Shown here: positions 30,208 through 35,308 of the stretch, piece after piece
Numbering within the stretch: position 1 is the first letter of the stretch
Layout: each line of letters begins with the position of its first letter
IMG/VR virus record: IMGVR_UViG_3300025897_000032
Coordinates: 1 to 35,308 of that record
Strand: one strand, 5' to 3'
Source of the DNA: a virus
Length of the DNA stretch: 35,308 nt
Position numbers and translations under genes: made by a program
Notes under the pieces: model-generated
Seen by the model: the letters and a program-made list of their open reading frames with translations, nothing else
Told to the model about the DNA's origin: nothing
Database searches by the model: none

Positions 30208-30435
30208 CTATAGTTTAGCTGACATGTCGTCTACAGCGTTCTCTGTAGCTAGTGTGCTCTTCCATGTACCTACAATACCACGCCATATCATATAGCCGCC
30301 CCACGGTACTGTTAGGAACACTAATGCCGGGATAGTAAACAATGCAATGAGTGAACCTAGTATAGCAATGCCTAAGCCAATGCCCATGTTCTCTTCTGCT
30401 TGCTTCTTAATGTCTGTCTTAGTTGTTACGTTCAT
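30208..30435 (-). CDS. Small membrane protein
   Basis: This 75-residue protein has two membrane segments (about 18-36, GIGLGIAILGSLIALFTIPA, and 38-52, VFLTVPWGGYMIWRG), with polar ends. An AGGAGGG site lies 8 nt upstream of the ATG. It has no cassette promoter and is 32 bp downstream of the next gene, so it is probably the last gene of that transcript. Function unknown. Confidence 0.7.
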   Translation of the reverse strand: MNVTTKTDIKKQAEENMGIGLGIAILGSLIALFTIPALVFLTVPWGGYMIWRGIVGTWKSTLATENAVDDMSAKL

Positions 30436-30467
30436 AATAATAACCCTCCTAGGTTGTTGTGTTGTTA

Positions 30468-30848
30468 TTAGTCTGCTCTACTGCCTACGCCTGCAGTAAT
30501 GCCATAGCTCTGTAGCACACTTGCATAAGCACCACACGCTGCTTCTTTAACGTCCATGCTCTGTCCGTTGTAGCCGCCTGCGTTCCACAGCTGGTAGCTC
30601 TTGCCTGTCCAGTCTTTACGGAAGCCCATAGCTTCTAGCACAGCTCTCTCCTGCTTGCCTAGCCTAGTGTTGCCCTTGTGCTCGGGTGTAACCTGTACCC
30701 AACCAAAGCCACAGTACATAGGCTCGCCATAAGCATTGCCTCCTGTAGTCTCTTTCCACTTAGCTAGGAACACATCCTTAGCAATGTTAGCGGCGTTGGT
30801 AGCCTGTTCAGCTACTGTGTTTGCATCAATGTTTAATAGTGTTGTCAT
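30468..30848 (-). CDS. Phage protein, function unknown
   Basis: This 126-residue protein has a helical start (NTVAEQATNAANIAKDVFLA) and a conserved-looking centre: CGFGWVQVTPEHKGNTRLGK, LEAMGFRKDWTGKSYQLWN. The pattern GFGWVxV...GNTxxGK...R recurs in unassigned phage proteins I know, but no function is established. It has its own cassette promoter and the GCGAGGGCAAT ribosome site. Confidence 0.75.
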   Translation of the reverse strand: MTTLLNIDANTVAEQATNAANIAKDVFLAKWKETTGGNAYGEPMYCGFGWVQVTPEHKGNTRLGKQERAVLEAMGFRKDWTGKSYQLWNAGGYNGQSMDVKEAACGAYASVLQSYGITAGVGSRAD

Positions 30849-30879
30849 ATTGCCCTCGCTTTGTTTAGTTTATAGTAAT

Positions 30880-30924
30880 ACTATACAGCAATTAAGGGTT
30901 GCTGTCAACCTTTATTTTACCAAT
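30880..30924 (-). promoter_or_regulatory. Cassette promoter P1
   Basis: On the minus strand: TTGACA, 17 bp, TATAGT, preceded by TTGGTAAAATAAAGG. The leader ends AAAGCGAGGGCAAT-ATG. One of eight similar cassettes. Confidence 0.85.
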
Positions 30925-31253
30925 TAAGTTGTGTATCGTTCGCCTGTTACGATGTTGACCATGTCTACTCCTGCACCCATAGCCGCTCTAGCTTCCCAAC
31001 GTTCTTCTCTAATCTGCTCTGCTGATCTATTCAGCTGTGCTGTTCTGTACTCTGCTAGGAATGCTGTGGTGTGGATGTCTCTTGCTACAGCCGTTCTTGT
31101 GACAGTAGTTTGATCTACTAGGCCTGCATCCTTGAGCTCTTGCATAGCATCTGCCATAAGCGGACGAAACTCTCCGTCTGCCATTAACCAACCACATGCT
31201 CCGTCCTTTGTGTGGACTTCGCCTGCGTTCCATTTGTCTATCATATAACTCAT
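30924..31253 (-). CDS. Small protein, function unknown
   Basis: This 109-residue, mainly helical protein (MSYMIDKWNAGEVHTKDGAC, PLMADAMQELKDAGLVDQTT, QLNRSAEQIREERWEARAAM) has no known motif. It starts at ATG 31253, 2 nt after GAGGGCAATAC of its cassette leader; upstream in-frame starts would lie in the promoter. Its stop lies at the edge of the P1 promoter element. Probably an early accessory protein. Confidence 0.7.
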   Translation of the reverse strand: MSYMIDKWNAGEVHTKDGACGWLMADGEFRPLMADAMQELKDAGLVDQTTVTRTAVARDIHTTAFLAEYRTAQLNRSAEQIREERWEARAAMGAGVDMVNIVTGERYTT

Positions 31254-31283
31254 GTATTGCCCTCGCTTTGTTATTATACTTAC

Positions 31284-31328: not shown

Positions 31329-31348
31329 ATGTGAAAATAAAAAAGGGT

Positions 31349-31386
31349 GGTAGGACGGACCTAAAGGGCATTGGATCCGTCCTACC
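31349..31386 (-). terminator. Rho-independent terminator after the AAA+ gene
   Basis: An 11-bp perfect stem GGTAGGACGGA / TCCGTCCTACC followed on the minus strand by ACCC and TTTTTTATTTTC. It should end the transcript from the AAA+ gene before promoter P2. Confidence 0.85.
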
Positions 31387-31399
31387 TTGTGCGAGCCAG

Positions 31400-31420
31400 C
31401 TATGGAGGGCAATCACATAG
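31400..31420 (-). ncRNA. Hairpin A with anti-ribosome-site loop (candidate regulatory RNA)
   Basis: On the minus strand CTATG and CATAG enclose the 11-nt loop TGATTGCCCTC. The loop is complementary to the GAGGGCAAT ribosome site of the cassette leaders. It lies between the AAA+ gene stop and its terminator, so the 3' end of that mRNA could act as a small RNA of about 110 nt. Confidence 0.45.
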
Positions 31421-31447
31421 TAAAAGGCTCTAGCACATACTCAACGG

Positions 31448-32452
31448 TTAGTGTTTCATAACCGTATTCTCAGCCATAGCTTCCCACTTGGTAGGAAATG
31501 CTTTAGCTAAGTCTGCAACTTTTAGTACTGTTCGCAGACTGAGTTCTCTCAAACGTGCCTTGTTGCTTTCGCAGAACTCTACGATCTCATCAACGACACC
31601 TTCGCCTAGTGCATACTCGTCTAGCATGCCATCTTTGGTAATCTGTTTGATACGCAACATCTTCTCTCTGTCCGTATCGATAGTCAAGTCAATGTAGTGA
31701 CAACGACTTTCAAGTGCTTCTAGGTGATCTCTCATCTTCTTGCTCTTAACGTTGTCGAACTTGATGTTGGTAATAAAGATCGCACCACCTTTGAAATCAA
31801 AGCTGTCTGGCACGCCTTCGTTACGTAGCTTGAATGAATCAGTGTTCCAGTGAATGGTCCTGTTCTTCTTTGAGTCTAGTGCCGCCTTCAGGATGTTCAA
31901 TGAAAGCTCGTCGCTGAAGACTGAGTCACAGTCATCAAAGACCAACACATTGTCCTTGTCGGCATAGTTGTAGAGTTTACAGTAGAGTCCAATAGCTGAC
32001 ATAGCACCTTTGACAACCTGATACTTGGGAGGCTTGTCGCCTAGTGTAGCAATCAAGTCATGCTTGCCTAGTACTTTTTCAACACCGTGTGACTTACCAA
32101 CACCTGGAGGTCCACTAACGATCATAGCTCGTACGTCACCCTTCTTGGTGGCACGTGTCATATCTTCGAGCATCTCAAATCGCTCACGCAATCTTTCAAT
32201 GGTCTCTTCGTCAGTCTCTTCTCGCTTAGTAGTCTTTGCTGAGCCTGCGTCCTCGTATGAGTCAGCCGCTGTGCATGCAATCTTGATGTTACGTTGAGGA
32301 AAGCCAGCAACCGCCGCGCCATCAACTGTTACGTATCCGCCCTTGGCACCTACCTTGAACGGTTCAACTAGTGGAAACACCATACCGGTTAAGTCCACAT
32401 CATTGCCTCTGATCTTATATGTGCCTTCTAAAATTCTAATCTTCTGTGTCAT
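31448..32452 (-). CDS. AAA+ ATPase
   Basis: This 334-residue protein starts at ATG 32452; the longer frame from 32509 would begin in the -10 box of its promoter. Residues 1-85 are a beta-rich N-terminal region and a charged linker. The ATPase core has Walker A SGPPGVGKS (113-121), Walker B VLVFDDCDSV (169-178) and a sensor-1-like FITN (226-229); a helical lid-like C-terminal domain follows (LRIKQITKDGML, RLRELSLRTVLKVADLAKA). The partner is unknown. The family resembles chaperone-type ATPases in many marine phages. Confidence 0.85.
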   Translation of the reverse strand: MTQKIRILEGTYKIRGNDVDLTGMVFPLVEPFKVGAKGGYVTVDGAAVAGFPQRNIKIACTAADSYEDAGSAKTTKREETDEETIERLRERFEMLEDMTRATKKGDVRAMIVSGPPGVGKSHGVEKVLGKHDLIATLGDKPPKYQVVKGAMSAIGLYCKLYNYADKDNVLVFDDCDSVFSDELSLNILKAALDSKKNRTIHWNTDSFKLRNEGVPDSFDFKGGAIFITNIKFDNVKSKKMRDHLEALESRCHYIDLTIDTDREKMLRIKQITKDGMLDEYALGEGVVDEIVEFCESNKARLRELSLRTVLKVADLAKAFPTKWEAMAENTVMKH

Positions 32453-32496
32453 ATTATCGCCCTTCGTTATTTTTATTAATGCCTTATTGTTCTTAC

Positions 32497-32541
32497 AGTA
32501 TACGATCATTAAATCGTAAAGTCAACCCCTAATTTTAAAAA
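32497..32541 (-). promoter_or_regulatory. Cassette promoter P3
   Basis: TTGACT, 17 bp, TATACT, preceded by TTAAAATTAGGGG. The leader is longer, about 38 nt, ending ACGAAGGGCGATAAT-ATG. Confidence 0.85.
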
Positions 32542-32831
32542 GTTGTTCTCAAGCACGGACCGCCTTTAACTAGGTTGGATCCTTTGTACTTCTCCCAGTC
32601 TTCCATTACCTTGGTCTGGTGTTCAGTAAAGCTCTCTACCTTAGTTCCGAACAAGGCGCCTACCTGAGTAAGCATATAGCCTACATCACTTAGATCGTTG
32701 TACGGACGGATCTCTTCGTTCTTGAGACCAGCCATGGAAGCAGTTTCGCTGAAGTCCATCATAGCTCTGCCAATCTCTGCCAGTTGCTTCTGTTCCGCCG
32801 TTGCTTCGTATTGGTTGATTAAAGATTTCAT
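32535..32831 (-). CDS. Small helical protein, function unknown
   Basis: This 98-residue protein is mostly helical (INQYEATAEQKQLAEIGRAM, SDVGYMLTQVGALFGTKVES) and ends in KGGPCLRTTF. Its coding end overlaps the upstream element of promoter P3. No motif is recognised. It has its own cassette promoter. Confidence 0.7.
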   Translation of the reverse strand: MKSLINQYEATAEQKQLAEIGRAMMDFSETASMAGLKNEEIRPYNDLSDVGYMLTQVGALFGTKVESFTEHQTKVMEDWEKYKGSNLVKGGPCLRTTF

Positions 32832-32862
32832 ATTTGCCCTCGTTTGTTTAATTTATAATAAG

Positions 32863-32910
32863 AGTATAGCATCTGCTTCTGCAGAAGTCAACCCCTAGTT
32901 TGCCAAAATC
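32863..32910 (-). promoter_or_regulatory. Cassette promoter P4 with palindrome in the spacer
   Basis: TTGACT, 17 bp, TATACT, preceded by TTTTGGCAAACTAGGGG. The spacer and -35 include the 12-bp palindrome CTTCTGCAGAAG (32876-32887), a possible operator specific to this cassette. Confidence 0.85.
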
Positions 32911-33029
32911 TTTTCTATCTGGTCTGCCTTCTTCTTCTGGATCTCTTGCATATCATCTGTCAAGTTAGACAGACTCATGAATAGAATCACAGCAGTAATG
33001 ATGATTCCGCCTATAACGATTATCCTCAC
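32895..33029 (-). CDS. 44-residue single-span membrane protein
   Basis: It starts at GTG 33029, overlapping the previous stop as GTGA. Residues 2-18 (RIIVIGGIIITAVILFM) span the membrane; the rest is polar and helical (LTDDMQEIQKKKADQIEKIL), a short coiled coil. The stop TAG lies in the AAACTAGGGG element of promoter P4. Stop-start overlap and codon use support it. Function unknown. Confidence 0.6.
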   Translation of the reverse strand: MRIIVIGGIIITAVILFMSLSNLTDDMQEIQKKKADQIEKILAN

Positions 33030-33406
33030 AGCTCCCCCTCTGTTATGCCTTCTTTAATCCAAGAACGATCATTCTTGGTCTTGCGTTCCTTTGCCTTGAG
33101 AGGTGACACTCTCTTTACCCTGCTAAGGTAGTAGTCCCTGCTGGACTGTACCTCTCCTGCATCGTCAGGCAGTTCGTTTGCCCACTCCGTTACAGTTTGG
33201 ATATGACATGGGTACTCTTTAAACCCGATGCCGTTCTCCATAACCAGGGCGGCTACGAATGCCATAGCATCCTGCTCCCTGTCCAGGTCCTCGACCAAGT
33301 AAGTGTCGCCGCCCTTGAACTTCCAATAGTTCTGGCCATCGCTAAACTTACCGCTCTCAGCGTGTGCACCGTAATTCTCTAAAACTTGTGTTGAAACTAT
33401 AAACAT
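33026..33406 (-). CDS. Phage protein, function unknown
   Basis: This 126-residue protein begins MFIVSTQVLENYGAHAESGK and continues with a beta-rich region (YWKFKGGDTYLVEDLDREQD) and a basic C-terminus (SPLKAKERKTKNDRSWIKEG). Similar small proteins starting with VSTQVLENYG are common in phages but have no assigned role. It has cassette promoter P5 and a coupled membrane protein downstream. Confidence 0.75.
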   Translation of the reverse strand: MFIVSTQVLENYGAHAESGKFSDGQNYWKFKGGDTYLVEDLDREQDAMAFVAALVMENGIGFKEYPCHIQTVTEWANELPDDAGEVQSSRDYYLSRVKRVSPLKAKERKTKNDRSWIKEGITEGEL

Positions 33407-33439
33407 ATTATCGCCCTCTTTCCTAATTGTTATACTTAC

Positions 33440-33484
33440 AGTATACAGTCAAATAATATAAAGGTCAACCCCTAATTTGCCATT
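33440..33484 (-). promoter_or_regulatory. Cassette promoter P5
   Basis: TTGACC, 17 bp, TATACT, preceded by ATGGCAAATTAGGGG. It shares the TATACT-GTA-AGTATA palindrome with P2. Leader ends AAAGAGGGCGATAAT-ATG. Confidence 0.85.
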
Positions 33485-33502
33485 ATCTAATCTTTTTTCC
33501 AC

Positions 33503-33552
33503 AGCCCGAGGAAGTCTTACAGGAGAGGGCAATCAACTTGCTTCCCCGGGCT
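33503..33552 (-). ncRNA. Hairpin B with anti-ribosome-site loop (candidate regulatory RNA)
   Basis: A 12-bp stem AGCCCGGGGAAG / CTTCCTCGGGCT holds a 26-nt loop that contains TTGATTGCCCTC. The one imperfect pair is G-U on the minus strand but A-C on the plus strand, so the minus strand is the likely RNA. It begins 8 nt after the CCA end of tRNA-Arg, so tRNA processing could release it. No T-run follows. Confidence 0.45.
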
Positions 33553-33887: not shown

Positions 33888-34205
33888 CTAGACTGTTTCT
33901 AGTTCAACTTCAATTTTTGCATCAGTCTGAGCCTGGACCTCTTGACTGATAGCTTTACAGTTTCGAACAACGAACTCGCTGATCGCTCCCTGTGCCGCTT
34001 CACCTTGGAAGTCTGCATCGCTGAGCAAAGTCTCACATACCTGAGCCTTGGTCATCGCATTGTCGAACTCCTTAAGGATCACATCAGTGTGACCGTTCTT
34101 GTCAAGAATCTTAATCCTTGAAACAAAGTCATTTGCAAAACGTACCTTGGTCACTCCGTTTAGAGTGGATACACCTGCGACTGTAAAAGTTTTCATTGTA
34201 GCCAT
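33888..34205 (-). CDS. Small protein upstream of the tRNAs, function unknown
   Basis: This 105-residue protein begins with a beta-rich half (MKTFTVAGVSTLNGVTKVRF, NDFVSRIKILDKNGHTDVIL) and ends in a helical half (ISEFVVRNCKAISQEVQAQT). No motif is recognised. It has cassette promoter P6, and with no promoter seen before the tRNAs it probably heads their transcript. Confidence 0.7.
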   Translation of the reverse strand: MATMKTFTVAGVSTLNGVTKVRFANDFVSRIKILDKNGHTDVILKEFDNAMTKAQVCETLLSDADFQGEAAQGAISEFVVRNCKAISQEVQAQTDAKIEVELETV

Positions 34206-34253: not shown

Positions 34254-34298
34254 ATAATAGCACCAGTCGACCCCATTGTCAACCTTTATTTTACCATT
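34254..34298 (-). promoter_or_regulatory. Cassette promoter P6
   Basis: TTGACA, 17 bp, TATTAT, preceded by ATGGTAAAATAAAGG. Its leader is about 40 nt and ends AAGGAGGGCTAAACGAT-ATG, the most divergent ribosome site of the eight. Confidence 0.8.
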
Positions 34299-34771
34299 TC
34301 TGCGATTTCAGTTTGGTGTTGCATTATTGCCACATCGGCGAAGTCGAACACCGGAAACCCGCCGTCATCGTTATTGCTCATCTTGTGGACAAGCCAATTC
34401 TCTCCATCCCAAAGGTAAGCCCATTCACACCAGCTACCTTCCATAGCCTCTGTCCATGCTTTGACATCATCGAAGTGCCTAGGCTCTGTGCCTGTCTCAC
34501 CTCTGTCTCTGCCGTAGGCCATACACCAATCATCGCATAGGCCTAGCTCTGGTTCTGGACCATTTTTGGCATCGAAGTCATGTGCTTCGCCTATCTCTGG
34601 TCCTAGGCTGCTCAAATCACCTAACCCAATCAGTTGAGCGATCGTATCCGAATCCGTATAATGATCCTTCAAAATTTGACCGTTGTGTTCAGGATAACCA
34701 TCCCAGTGACAGTAAATTCCAATAATGCCACCTTCTGGCTTCTTCATTGCTATTGTTGATCTTGTACCCAT
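34286..34771 (-). CDS. Widespread phage protein, function unknown
   Basis: This 161-residue protein begins MGTRSTIAMKKPEGGIIGIY followed by CHWDGYPEHNGQILKDHY, a pattern I know from many unassigned phage proteins. Trp, Cys and acidic residues are frequent (GLCDDWCMAYGRD, WCEWAYLWDGENWLVH). It may be a metal- or nucleotide-binding accessory protein; no function is established. Its last codons overlap the upstream element of promoter P6. Confidence 0.8.
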   Translation of the reverse strand: MGTRSTIAMKKPEGGIIGIYCHWDGYPEHNGQILKDHYTDSDTIAQLIGLGDLSSLGPEIGEAHDFDAKNGPEPELGLCDDWCMAYGRDRGETGTEPRHFDDVKAWTEAMEGSWCEWAYLWDGENWLVHKMSNNDDGGFPVFDFADVAIMQHQTEIAEMVK

Positions 34772-34844: not shown

Positions 34845-35011
34845 TCTTCTCGATTTCCTAGGACGGCTGTCGCTAGGCCGAAGAATAACATTCCTGCCGT
34901 AGCCGGAACAAATACGACAGCCCAGGCCCAATCTAATGCCGGGGCGCCTTCAGTTATCCCTGTAGCAACTATCGCACAGAAGATGAACATAAGTGCAGTG
35001 AAGGTGCTCAT
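34832..35011 (-). CDS. Small two-span membrane protein
   Basis: This 59-residue protein starts at ATG 35011, overlapping the preceding stop as ATGA; a longer frame would begin inside that gene. Hydrophobic segments are about 3-20 (TFTALMFIFCAIVATGI) and 29-50 (AWAVVFVPATAGMLFFGLAT). It ends NREEEEN. Function unknown; cotranscribed with the acidic protein upstream. Confidence 0.65.
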   Translation of the reverse strand: MSTFTALMFIFCAIVATGITEGAPALDWAWAVVFVPATAGMLFFGLATAVLGNREEEEN

Positions 35012-35229
35012 TCGTAGCACTCCCCAAAGTCTTCCCATTCTTGCTCCCAGCTCGGCTGCCCGTCGTCTTCGTCCTCAACAAACCTCTCACTCAGCTCGTT
35101 GCAGTCCAGCATATCAGCCACGTCGTCTGTGCTCATATACTTCAGCGCCATTGTTAGCATAGCCTCAGCACTCACAATGCCGTTCTCTACTAAATCCAAC
35201 GCTTCGTCTCTACTATTAAAATTTGCCAT
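35008..35229 (-). CDS. Small acidic protein
   Basis: This 73-residue protein starts at ATG 35229, directly after the cassette ribosome site GAGGGCAAA; the upstream in-frame ATG would sit in the promoter. The first part is helical (SRDEALDLVENGIVSAEAML, MSTDDVADMLDCNELSERFV) and the C-terminus is strongly acidic and aromatic (EDEDDGQPSWEQEWEDFGEC). Acidic early proteins sometimes mimic nucleic acid; that is only a possibility. Confidence 0.7.
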   Translation of the reverse strand: MANFNSRDEALDLVENGIVSAEAMLTMALKYMSTDDVADMLDCNELSERFVEDEDDGQPSWEQEWEDFGECYE

Positions 35230-35262
35230 TTTGCCCTCTTTCTGTTTCCTTATTATGCTTAT

Positions 35263-35308
35263 ACTATAACACACCTTTTCCGGAATGTCAACCTTTTTCT
35301 TGCCAAAT
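35263..35308 (-). promoter_or_regulatory. Cassette promoter P8
   Basis: TTGACA, 17 bp, TATAGT, preceded by ATTTGGCAAGAAAAAGG at the edge of the window. Leader ends AAAGAGGGCAAA-ATG. Confidence 0.85.

Follow-up and report, generated by a model that had tools for sequence, protein, structure and literature searches.

Do two hairpins whose loops mirror the ribosome sites of nearby genes belong to an RNA circuit that acts on those genes in trans, as the first-pass annotation of this DNA had proposed? The window, by which we mean the whole 35.3-kb IMG/VR stretch that was analysed, is a fragment of a large tailed phage; it encodes a gp32-like protein and a UvsW/RadD-type helicase whose closest counterparts are those of the jumbo phages Phosso, Atu_ph07 and PA5oct. 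Its minus strand at 30-35 kb holds an early-type module, in which every small gene is preceded by a TTGAC..TATAAT promoter of its own and by a short leader that ends in GAGGGC and a spacer of 3-8 nt. The same region contains an AAA+ ATPase-like gene, for which a search for sequence matches to solved structures found none (Table 1).

The two hairpins fold as first described. The inner stem of hairpin 1, CTATG[TGATTGCCCTC]CATAG, is enclosed by an outer GAGCC/GGCTC helix, and in one relative (L003) it reads CTACG/CGTAG, a compensatory change around an identical loop. This hairpin sits between the ATPase stop codon and a strong terminator, whose own loop, TGCCCTT, is the complement of a leader variant, AAGGGC. 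Hairpin 2, straight after tRNA-Arg, has an 11-bp stem (GCCCGGGGAAG/CTTCCTCGGGC; 33504-33551) with a G-U pair that becomes an A-C mismatch on the plus strand, and the earlier argument for a minus-strand RNA is correct, as is the placement given for both hairpins. The window holds exactly two copies of the 11-mer GAGGGCAATCA, on the plus strand at 31405-31415 and 33525-33535, so the minus strand reads TGATTGCCCTC at both sites. The leaders of the minus-strand genes pair with this loop over the lengths originally reported, and the best matches to the 11-mer at window genes are nearly all module leaders. Near-matches in the window numbered 7, compared with 6.2 expected from shuffles. Two exact 11-mers within the window alone make a thin case and prove little.

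Table 1 Features of the window that bear on the proposed circuit
Feature	Positions	Strand	Context	Predicted duplex with loop (kcal/mol)
Leader GAGGGCAAT	30849-30857	-	gene 30468-30848	-15.4
Leader GAGGGCAAT	31256-31264	-	gene 30924-31253	-15.6
Intrinsic terminator	31340-31386	-	closes ATPase 3′ UTR; TGCCCTT in loop	
Anti-leader hairpin 1	31393-31430	-	inner hairpin 31400-31420, loop TGATTGCCCTC; ATPase 3′ UTR	
AAA+ ATPase-like gene	31448-32509	-	phrog_1250, T4 NrdC.10-like; hairpins in its 3′ UTR; own leader AAGGGCGAT	
Leader GAGGGCAAA	32833-32841	-	gene 32535-32831	-14.0
Leader GAGGGCGAT	33410-33418	-	gene 33026-33406	-15.0
Anti-leader hairpin 2	33503-33552	-	loop region with TGATTGCCCTC; directly downstream of tRNA-Arg	
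Leader GAGGGCTAA	34211-34219	-	gene 33888-34205	-11.6
Leader GAGGGCGAA	34772-34780	-	gene 34286-34771	-13.7
Leader GAGGGCAAA	35230-35238	-	gene at window end, listed ORF 35008-35274, ATG just below 35230	-13.9

We then compared the 3′ UTRs of phrog_1250 relatives with an ATPase identity of about 64% or more, reduced at 85% similarity to 49 non-redundant sequences, among which phylogenetic dependence persists. An unbiased hexamer count ranked GCCCTC first: it was present in 48 of the 49 UTRs, with 126 copies in total (mononucleotide shuffles: 2.5 expected, at most 8) and with one to five copies, mostly two to four, per UTR. The one exception, L182, lacks it in the trimmed stretch, and a hairpin of this kind lies about 700 nt farther downstream. 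On the basis of these comparative counts, the window hairpins are beyond chance. In predicted folds, 64 of the 126 sites were fully unpaired, all of them in hairpin loops, compared with 20 of 169 control hexamers of the same composition. A stem score of at least 15 was found around 31% of the GCCCTC sites and in 2.5% of cases with shuffled flanks (53% versus 10% at a score of 12, and 28% versus 0.4% at a score of 20). A crude hairpin-loop census of whole loci gave only mild enrichment, as stems in coding regions swamped the signal, and fixed short windows missed hairpins with long loops; restriction to the 3′ UTR and the gene strand solved both problems.

Among relatives the stems have unrelated sequences and the GCCCTC loop stays constant. 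The loop flanks vary too, GCCCTC being mostly preceded by GT, TA, AT or AA, which rules out an extended match of 9-11 nt as the conserved unit. The exact complement between loop and leader noticed at the outset is real in the window, where its 9-11-nt extent is local; what is conserved is a 6-nt pair, GCCCUC/GAGGGC.

In relatives, one loop often straddles the ATPase stop codon and another lies within the terminator. Three parts make up a typical RNA: (i) a hairpin that uses the last stretch of the ATPase coding sequence as its 5′ arm and opens into a loop at or just past the stop codon, GCCCTC lying within 8 nt of that codon in 30 of the 49 UTRs; (ii) a further hairpin or two that stand free, often containing GCCCTCACGC; and (iii) a terminator with the loop GTGCCCTC, seen in many relatives. 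The window RNA is a reduced form of this arrangement, with one hairpin and the TGCCCTT terminator. The circuit first proposed is supported, and its extent was underestimated. The second site, linked to tRNA genes, recurs as well: GCCCTC was found within 150 nt past the last tRNA at 11 of 22 tRNA-cluster ends examined. A separate promoter for a small RNA was rejected: within the final 250 nt of the ATPase gene, only one locus of 49 had a candidate. A general role for GCCCTC as a decoration of terminator loops was also rejected, because GTGCCCTCG occurs only 0-2 times per contig (52-357 kb; control 0-1), at positions that coincide with the ATPase 3′ UTR wherever the surroundings were surveyed. 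In the ten records surveyed, non-coding GCCCTC hairpins concentrate at the ATPase locus.

The terminator hairpins provided a measure of covariation. In 15 of them, chosen for a long uninterrupted stem, all 150 of 150 stem cells form standard pairs, a value that is partly an effect of that choice, which leaves the diversity of the pairs unaffected. Changes on both sides of the stem, that is, compensatory ones, were seen in 9 of the 10 pairs, and the covariation score was 1.124, compared with 0.235 for shuffled and at most 0.26 for slid alignments. Neither the loop GUGCCCUC nor the U-G pair that closes it varied. Rfam 15 covariance models returned only tRNAs at or above the gathering score, and no family for the hairpins.

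Independently of the loops, we counted hexamers in the leaders that follow sigma70-like promoters in the same loci, found by a regular expression (n = 354). GAGGGC ranked first (206 of 354), and its own sub-words came next. These leaders precede genes of 61 protein clusters and so do not stem from one duplicated gene, and the distance from GAGGGC to the ATG is tight, at 3-8 nt. The sixth letter is nearly fixed (GAGGGC 206, versus GAGGGT 13, GAGGGA 10 and GAGGGG 0). GAGG can pair with the 16S tail; the final GC does not, though it pairs with the loop. On large contigs, GAGGGC is confined to a module of about 5-15 kb around the hairpins (in G008, 13 of 13 GAGGGC leaders lie at 37-46 kb), and distant genes have AGGAG-like sites. 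The leader of the ATPase itself reads GAGGGC in 27 of 40 cases and AAGGGC in 9 of 40. Exact GAGGGC is absent from about 42% of the promoter-linked leaders, a group that includes the AAGGGC variants and in part, likely, miscalled starts; the simple rules used to assign start codons make the leader percentages lower bounds.

The two motifs, found separately, are exact reverse complements of each other, a coincidence expected by chance about once in 4,096. Their orientation is absolute: the ratio of GCCCTC to GAGGGC is 126:0 in the UTRs, and that of GAGGGC to GCCCTC is 206:0 in the leaders. They are also absent together. In a sister clade with 58-61% identity (L053-L082), the next gene follows the ATPase directly or after a short spacer, GCCCTC was found in 0 of 5 non-redundant UTRs and GAGGGC in 0 of 53 promoter-linked leaders; at the homologous locus of the PA5oct and Cronobacter S13 relatives, neither motif was found. 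The first-pass annotation had proposed covariation of loop and ribosome site in related phages as a check, and at the level of whole clades what is seen is joint absence. Co-change of single letters is inconsistent within the clade. Pairs of GCCCTT loops with AAGGGC leaders are suggestive in the window and in L003 and fail to hold across loci: three loci (L011, L004 and L029) have many AAGGGC leaders and loops that still read GCCCTC, and another (L180) retains three loops with GAGGGC in only 1 of 7 leaders.

Taken together, the comparisons are best explained by what was first proposed, an RNA circuit acting in trans on the early leader set, because the leader motif spans 61 clusters, each genome has one dedicated locus of complementary loops, the orientation is absolute, the stems covary around a constant loop and the sister clade lacks both motifs. 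These features, along with the loops, their complementarity to the leaders and the confinement to one module, can be read directly in the genomes. They suggest that the ATPase 3′ UTR is likely to be a multi-hairpin anti-Shine-Dalgarno RNA that would repress the module in trans through a ribosome site private to the phage.

Could the loops be read by a protein instead? On this account, the hairpins are sites for an RNA-binding protein, of phage or host, that recognizes GCCCUC, and complementarity to the leaders is secondary or reflects a handover mediated by the protein. The strict invariance of the GUGCCCUC loop and its U-G closure would fit such a site, as would the presence of multiple loops per RNA, reminiscent of CsrB/RsmZ decoys, and an additional motif shared by several tRNA-linked hairpins and that of the window, an asymmetric internal loop (CA opposite GUAAGA-like). 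CsrA reads GGA in hairpin loops; the motif common to the loops here is GCCCUC. Outside the terminators, however, loop lengths and flanks differ and six letters alone are shared, and it is these six that match, in reverse complement, the independently derived top leader hexamer, so that we consider a protein site unlikely.

Pairing might also occur only in cis, between the 5′ leader of the ATPase mRNA and its own 3′ hairpins, for autoregulation or self-protection. The ATPase leader carries one of the two complementary hexamers in 36 of 40 cases, and with GCCCTC so close to the stop codon, translation of the ATPase could open or close the hairpin. Dozens of unrelated genes with promoters of their own bear the same leader motif, however, which pairing in cis leaves unexplained; it is distinctly unlikely as the whole account, and it may coexist with action in trans.

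In the trans-acting circuit, each 3′ UTR loop would display GCCCUC, with the window adding a second copy after its tRNA cluster, and these loops would pair with GAGGGC on the mRNAs of the module, that of the ATPase included. GAGGGC would be a ribosome site used only in this early-gene module, in which every gene has its own sigma70-like promoter. Pairing would cover the ribosome site and outcompete the 16S anti-Shine-Dalgarno sequence: predicted duplexes of loop and leader reach about -11 to -16 kcal/mol over 6-9 bp, and pairing of these leaders with the 16S tail about -6 to -8 kcal/mol for most, with two GGAGGG leaders at -10.7 and -11.9 kcal/mol. Against this, the pairing core is short, at six bases, and loops inside terminators would have to be accessible. 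The terminal GC of GAGGGC would mark the regulon, since the loop does not match the normal AGGAG Shine-Dalgarno sequences elsewhere in the genome. As ATPase transcript builds up, all genes of the set, the ATPase among them, would be translated less or not at all, and the RNA thus probably acts as a feedback repressor. We infer from the sequences that the 3′ UTR is transcribed and then released by processing, that it pairs with the leaders in the cell, that it represses rather than activates, and when in infection the feedback would set in. With a hairpin at the stop codon, ribosomes that complete the ATPase may hold the first loop closed or occupied, which would tie the signal to translation of that gene. 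We lean towards a private pair of Shine-Dalgarno and anti-Shine-Dalgarno sequences, in which one dedicated phage RNA with repeated loops would read the GAGGGC tag and, by RNA alone, shut off the whole early regulon; this would be coupled to translation of the ATPase, because the first hairpin often straddles its stop codon.

The sign of regulation is unreadable from sequence, and the pairing could be positive or protective, with loops shielding leaders from a nuclease or from a standby structure, or with leaders titrating the hairpin RNA. T4-type phages have nucleases, such as RegB, that cut early ribosome sites. Pairing with the loops, however, would mask GAGG, the part that would contact 16S rRNA, and such pairing inhibits translation in known small RNAs with anti-Shine-Dalgarno loops (PMC3927594), so that protection is very unlikely. 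An alternative role for GAGGGC, as an operator in double-stranded DNA for a phage regulator, with the hairpin copies as decoys, would agree with its constant position immediately downstream of early promoters, but it is highly improbable given the absolute strand bias, the tight spacing to the ATG and the fact that the motif sits in the loops of RNA hairpins whose stems covary.

The timing of early genes in lytic phages is generally attributed, for the most part, to transcription factors and other proteins, such as repressors and nucleases. If a repressing RNA does operate here, a single base-pairing RNA would read a tag common to many phage mRNAs simultaneously, and the pairing would have been kept across a diverse group of marine phages despite near-complete turnover of the stems. 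It would also predict a portable translation switch made of a six-letter ribosome site and a six-letter loop, and would add a structured RNA with strong covariation that is absent from Rfam. To our knowledge, repeated identical loops are atypical of small RNAs derived from 3′ UTRs, a class that the phage RNA otherwise resembles in its location in an mRNA 3′ UTR, its use of the common intrinsic terminator and its lack of a promoter of its own. An example of that class is the small RNA from the GlnA 3′ UTR (PMC9731577); it differs in that release of the phage RNA by processing is putative.

The closest known design is that of the rhizobial cuckoo/SmelA075 small RNAs. SmelA075/SmelA099 ('cuckoo') and CcsR of Rhodobacter are alphaproteobacterial RNAs with two to four tandem hairpins, identical anti-Shine-Dalgarno loops and variable stems; CcsR follows ccaF1, and RNAs of this type are thought to block the ribosome sites of several mRNAs (PMC3927594; PMC10253847). 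The phage RNA shares with them the tandem hairpins, the repeated anti-Shine-Dalgarno loop, the variable stems and the position downstream of a protein gene. However, the cuckoo loop, CCUCCUCCC, matches ordinary Shine-Dalgarno sequences, whereas GCCCUC matches a phage-private site, and the cuckoo RNAs are linked to DUF1127 genes on alphaproteobacterial chromosomes, whereas the phage hairpins accompany the phrog_1250 ATPase on viral contigs. With a different loop and a different linked gene, and being encoded by a phage, the hairpin RNA is not a member of the cuckoo family. Firmicutes small RNAs with C-rich loops, such as RNAIII of S. aureus and LhrC of Listeria, likewise pair in trans with Shine-Dalgarno sequences through an exposed C-rich loop (PMC4132741); they are bacterial, target ordinary Shine-Dalgarno sequences and have no matched private leader motif, and we found no relatedness between them and the phage RNA. 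The phage regulatory RNAs OOP, PreS, VpdS, sas and 24B_1 pair with mRNAs and regulate infection; those reviewed are mostly single-target antisense or Hfq-dependent RNAs of temperate phages, and none is described as having multiple hairpins that match a leader motif common to an entire early regulon (PMC12197685). As in trans-acting anti-Shine-Dalgarno RNAs in general, the loop described here complements the ribosome sites that several genes carry on separate transcripts. In the open-licence literature, we found no report of GCCCTC loops, or of a phage whose own RNA reads a ribosome site private to it.

The system belongs to a large group of ocean phages. At least 190 relatives of the ATPase gene are present in IMG/VR, and the metagenome-assembled genomes that contain two of them are assigned to Neomarinimicrobiota and Porticoccaceae, which conflict as hosts. 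A scan of IMG/VR with one 16-nt hairpin pattern repeatedly returned ATPase loci of this group; the other matches were unrelated chance ones on contigs without the ATPase, mostly GC-rich.

A hairpin recurs after the tRNA cluster, both in the window and in four loci of relatives carrying the phrog_1250 AAA+ ATPase gene (L011, L039, L166 and L157), with the preceding tRNA being tRNA-Arg or tRNA-Leu. In this arrangement, a short inner helix with GCCCTC, the complement of the GAGGGC ribosome site, sits above an internal loop, and a long outer stem rich in GC flanks it. The internal loop is asymmetric, with 5' CA opposite a GUAAGA-like strand, and is common to the post-tRNA hairpins of several relatives. 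These hairpins may represent a second structured RNA family.

The first hairpin often spans the ATPase stop codon (L158, L167, L039 and others), such that its 5' arm is coding and the stop either immediately precedes the GCCCTC loop or falls within it; the hairpin's folding should therefore be controlled by terminating ribosomes. Terminator loops in the window, L003 and L049/L161 carry GCCCTT, the complement of AAGGGC, the leader variant that the window's ATPase gene uses. This is possibly a loop specialisation, with a pattern that is inconsistent across loci.

There are many small minus-strand early genes of unknown function with private promoters, such as those at 30208-30848 in the window; most of these genes had no PHROG or Pfam match.

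Window coordinates of the features
Feature	Position	Strand
Post-tRNA hairpin	33503-33552	-
Terminator with GCCCTT loop	31349-31386	
Small early genes (example)	30208-30848	-

This phage ATPase was also found on contigs in Ca. Neomarinimicrobiota and Porticoccaceae MAGs (L185, PBPT01000016.1, 335 kb; L186, NYWV01000048.1). Both GAGGGC leaders and the hairpins are present on L185, so the binning of these bacterial MAGs appears to have taken in large phage contigs.
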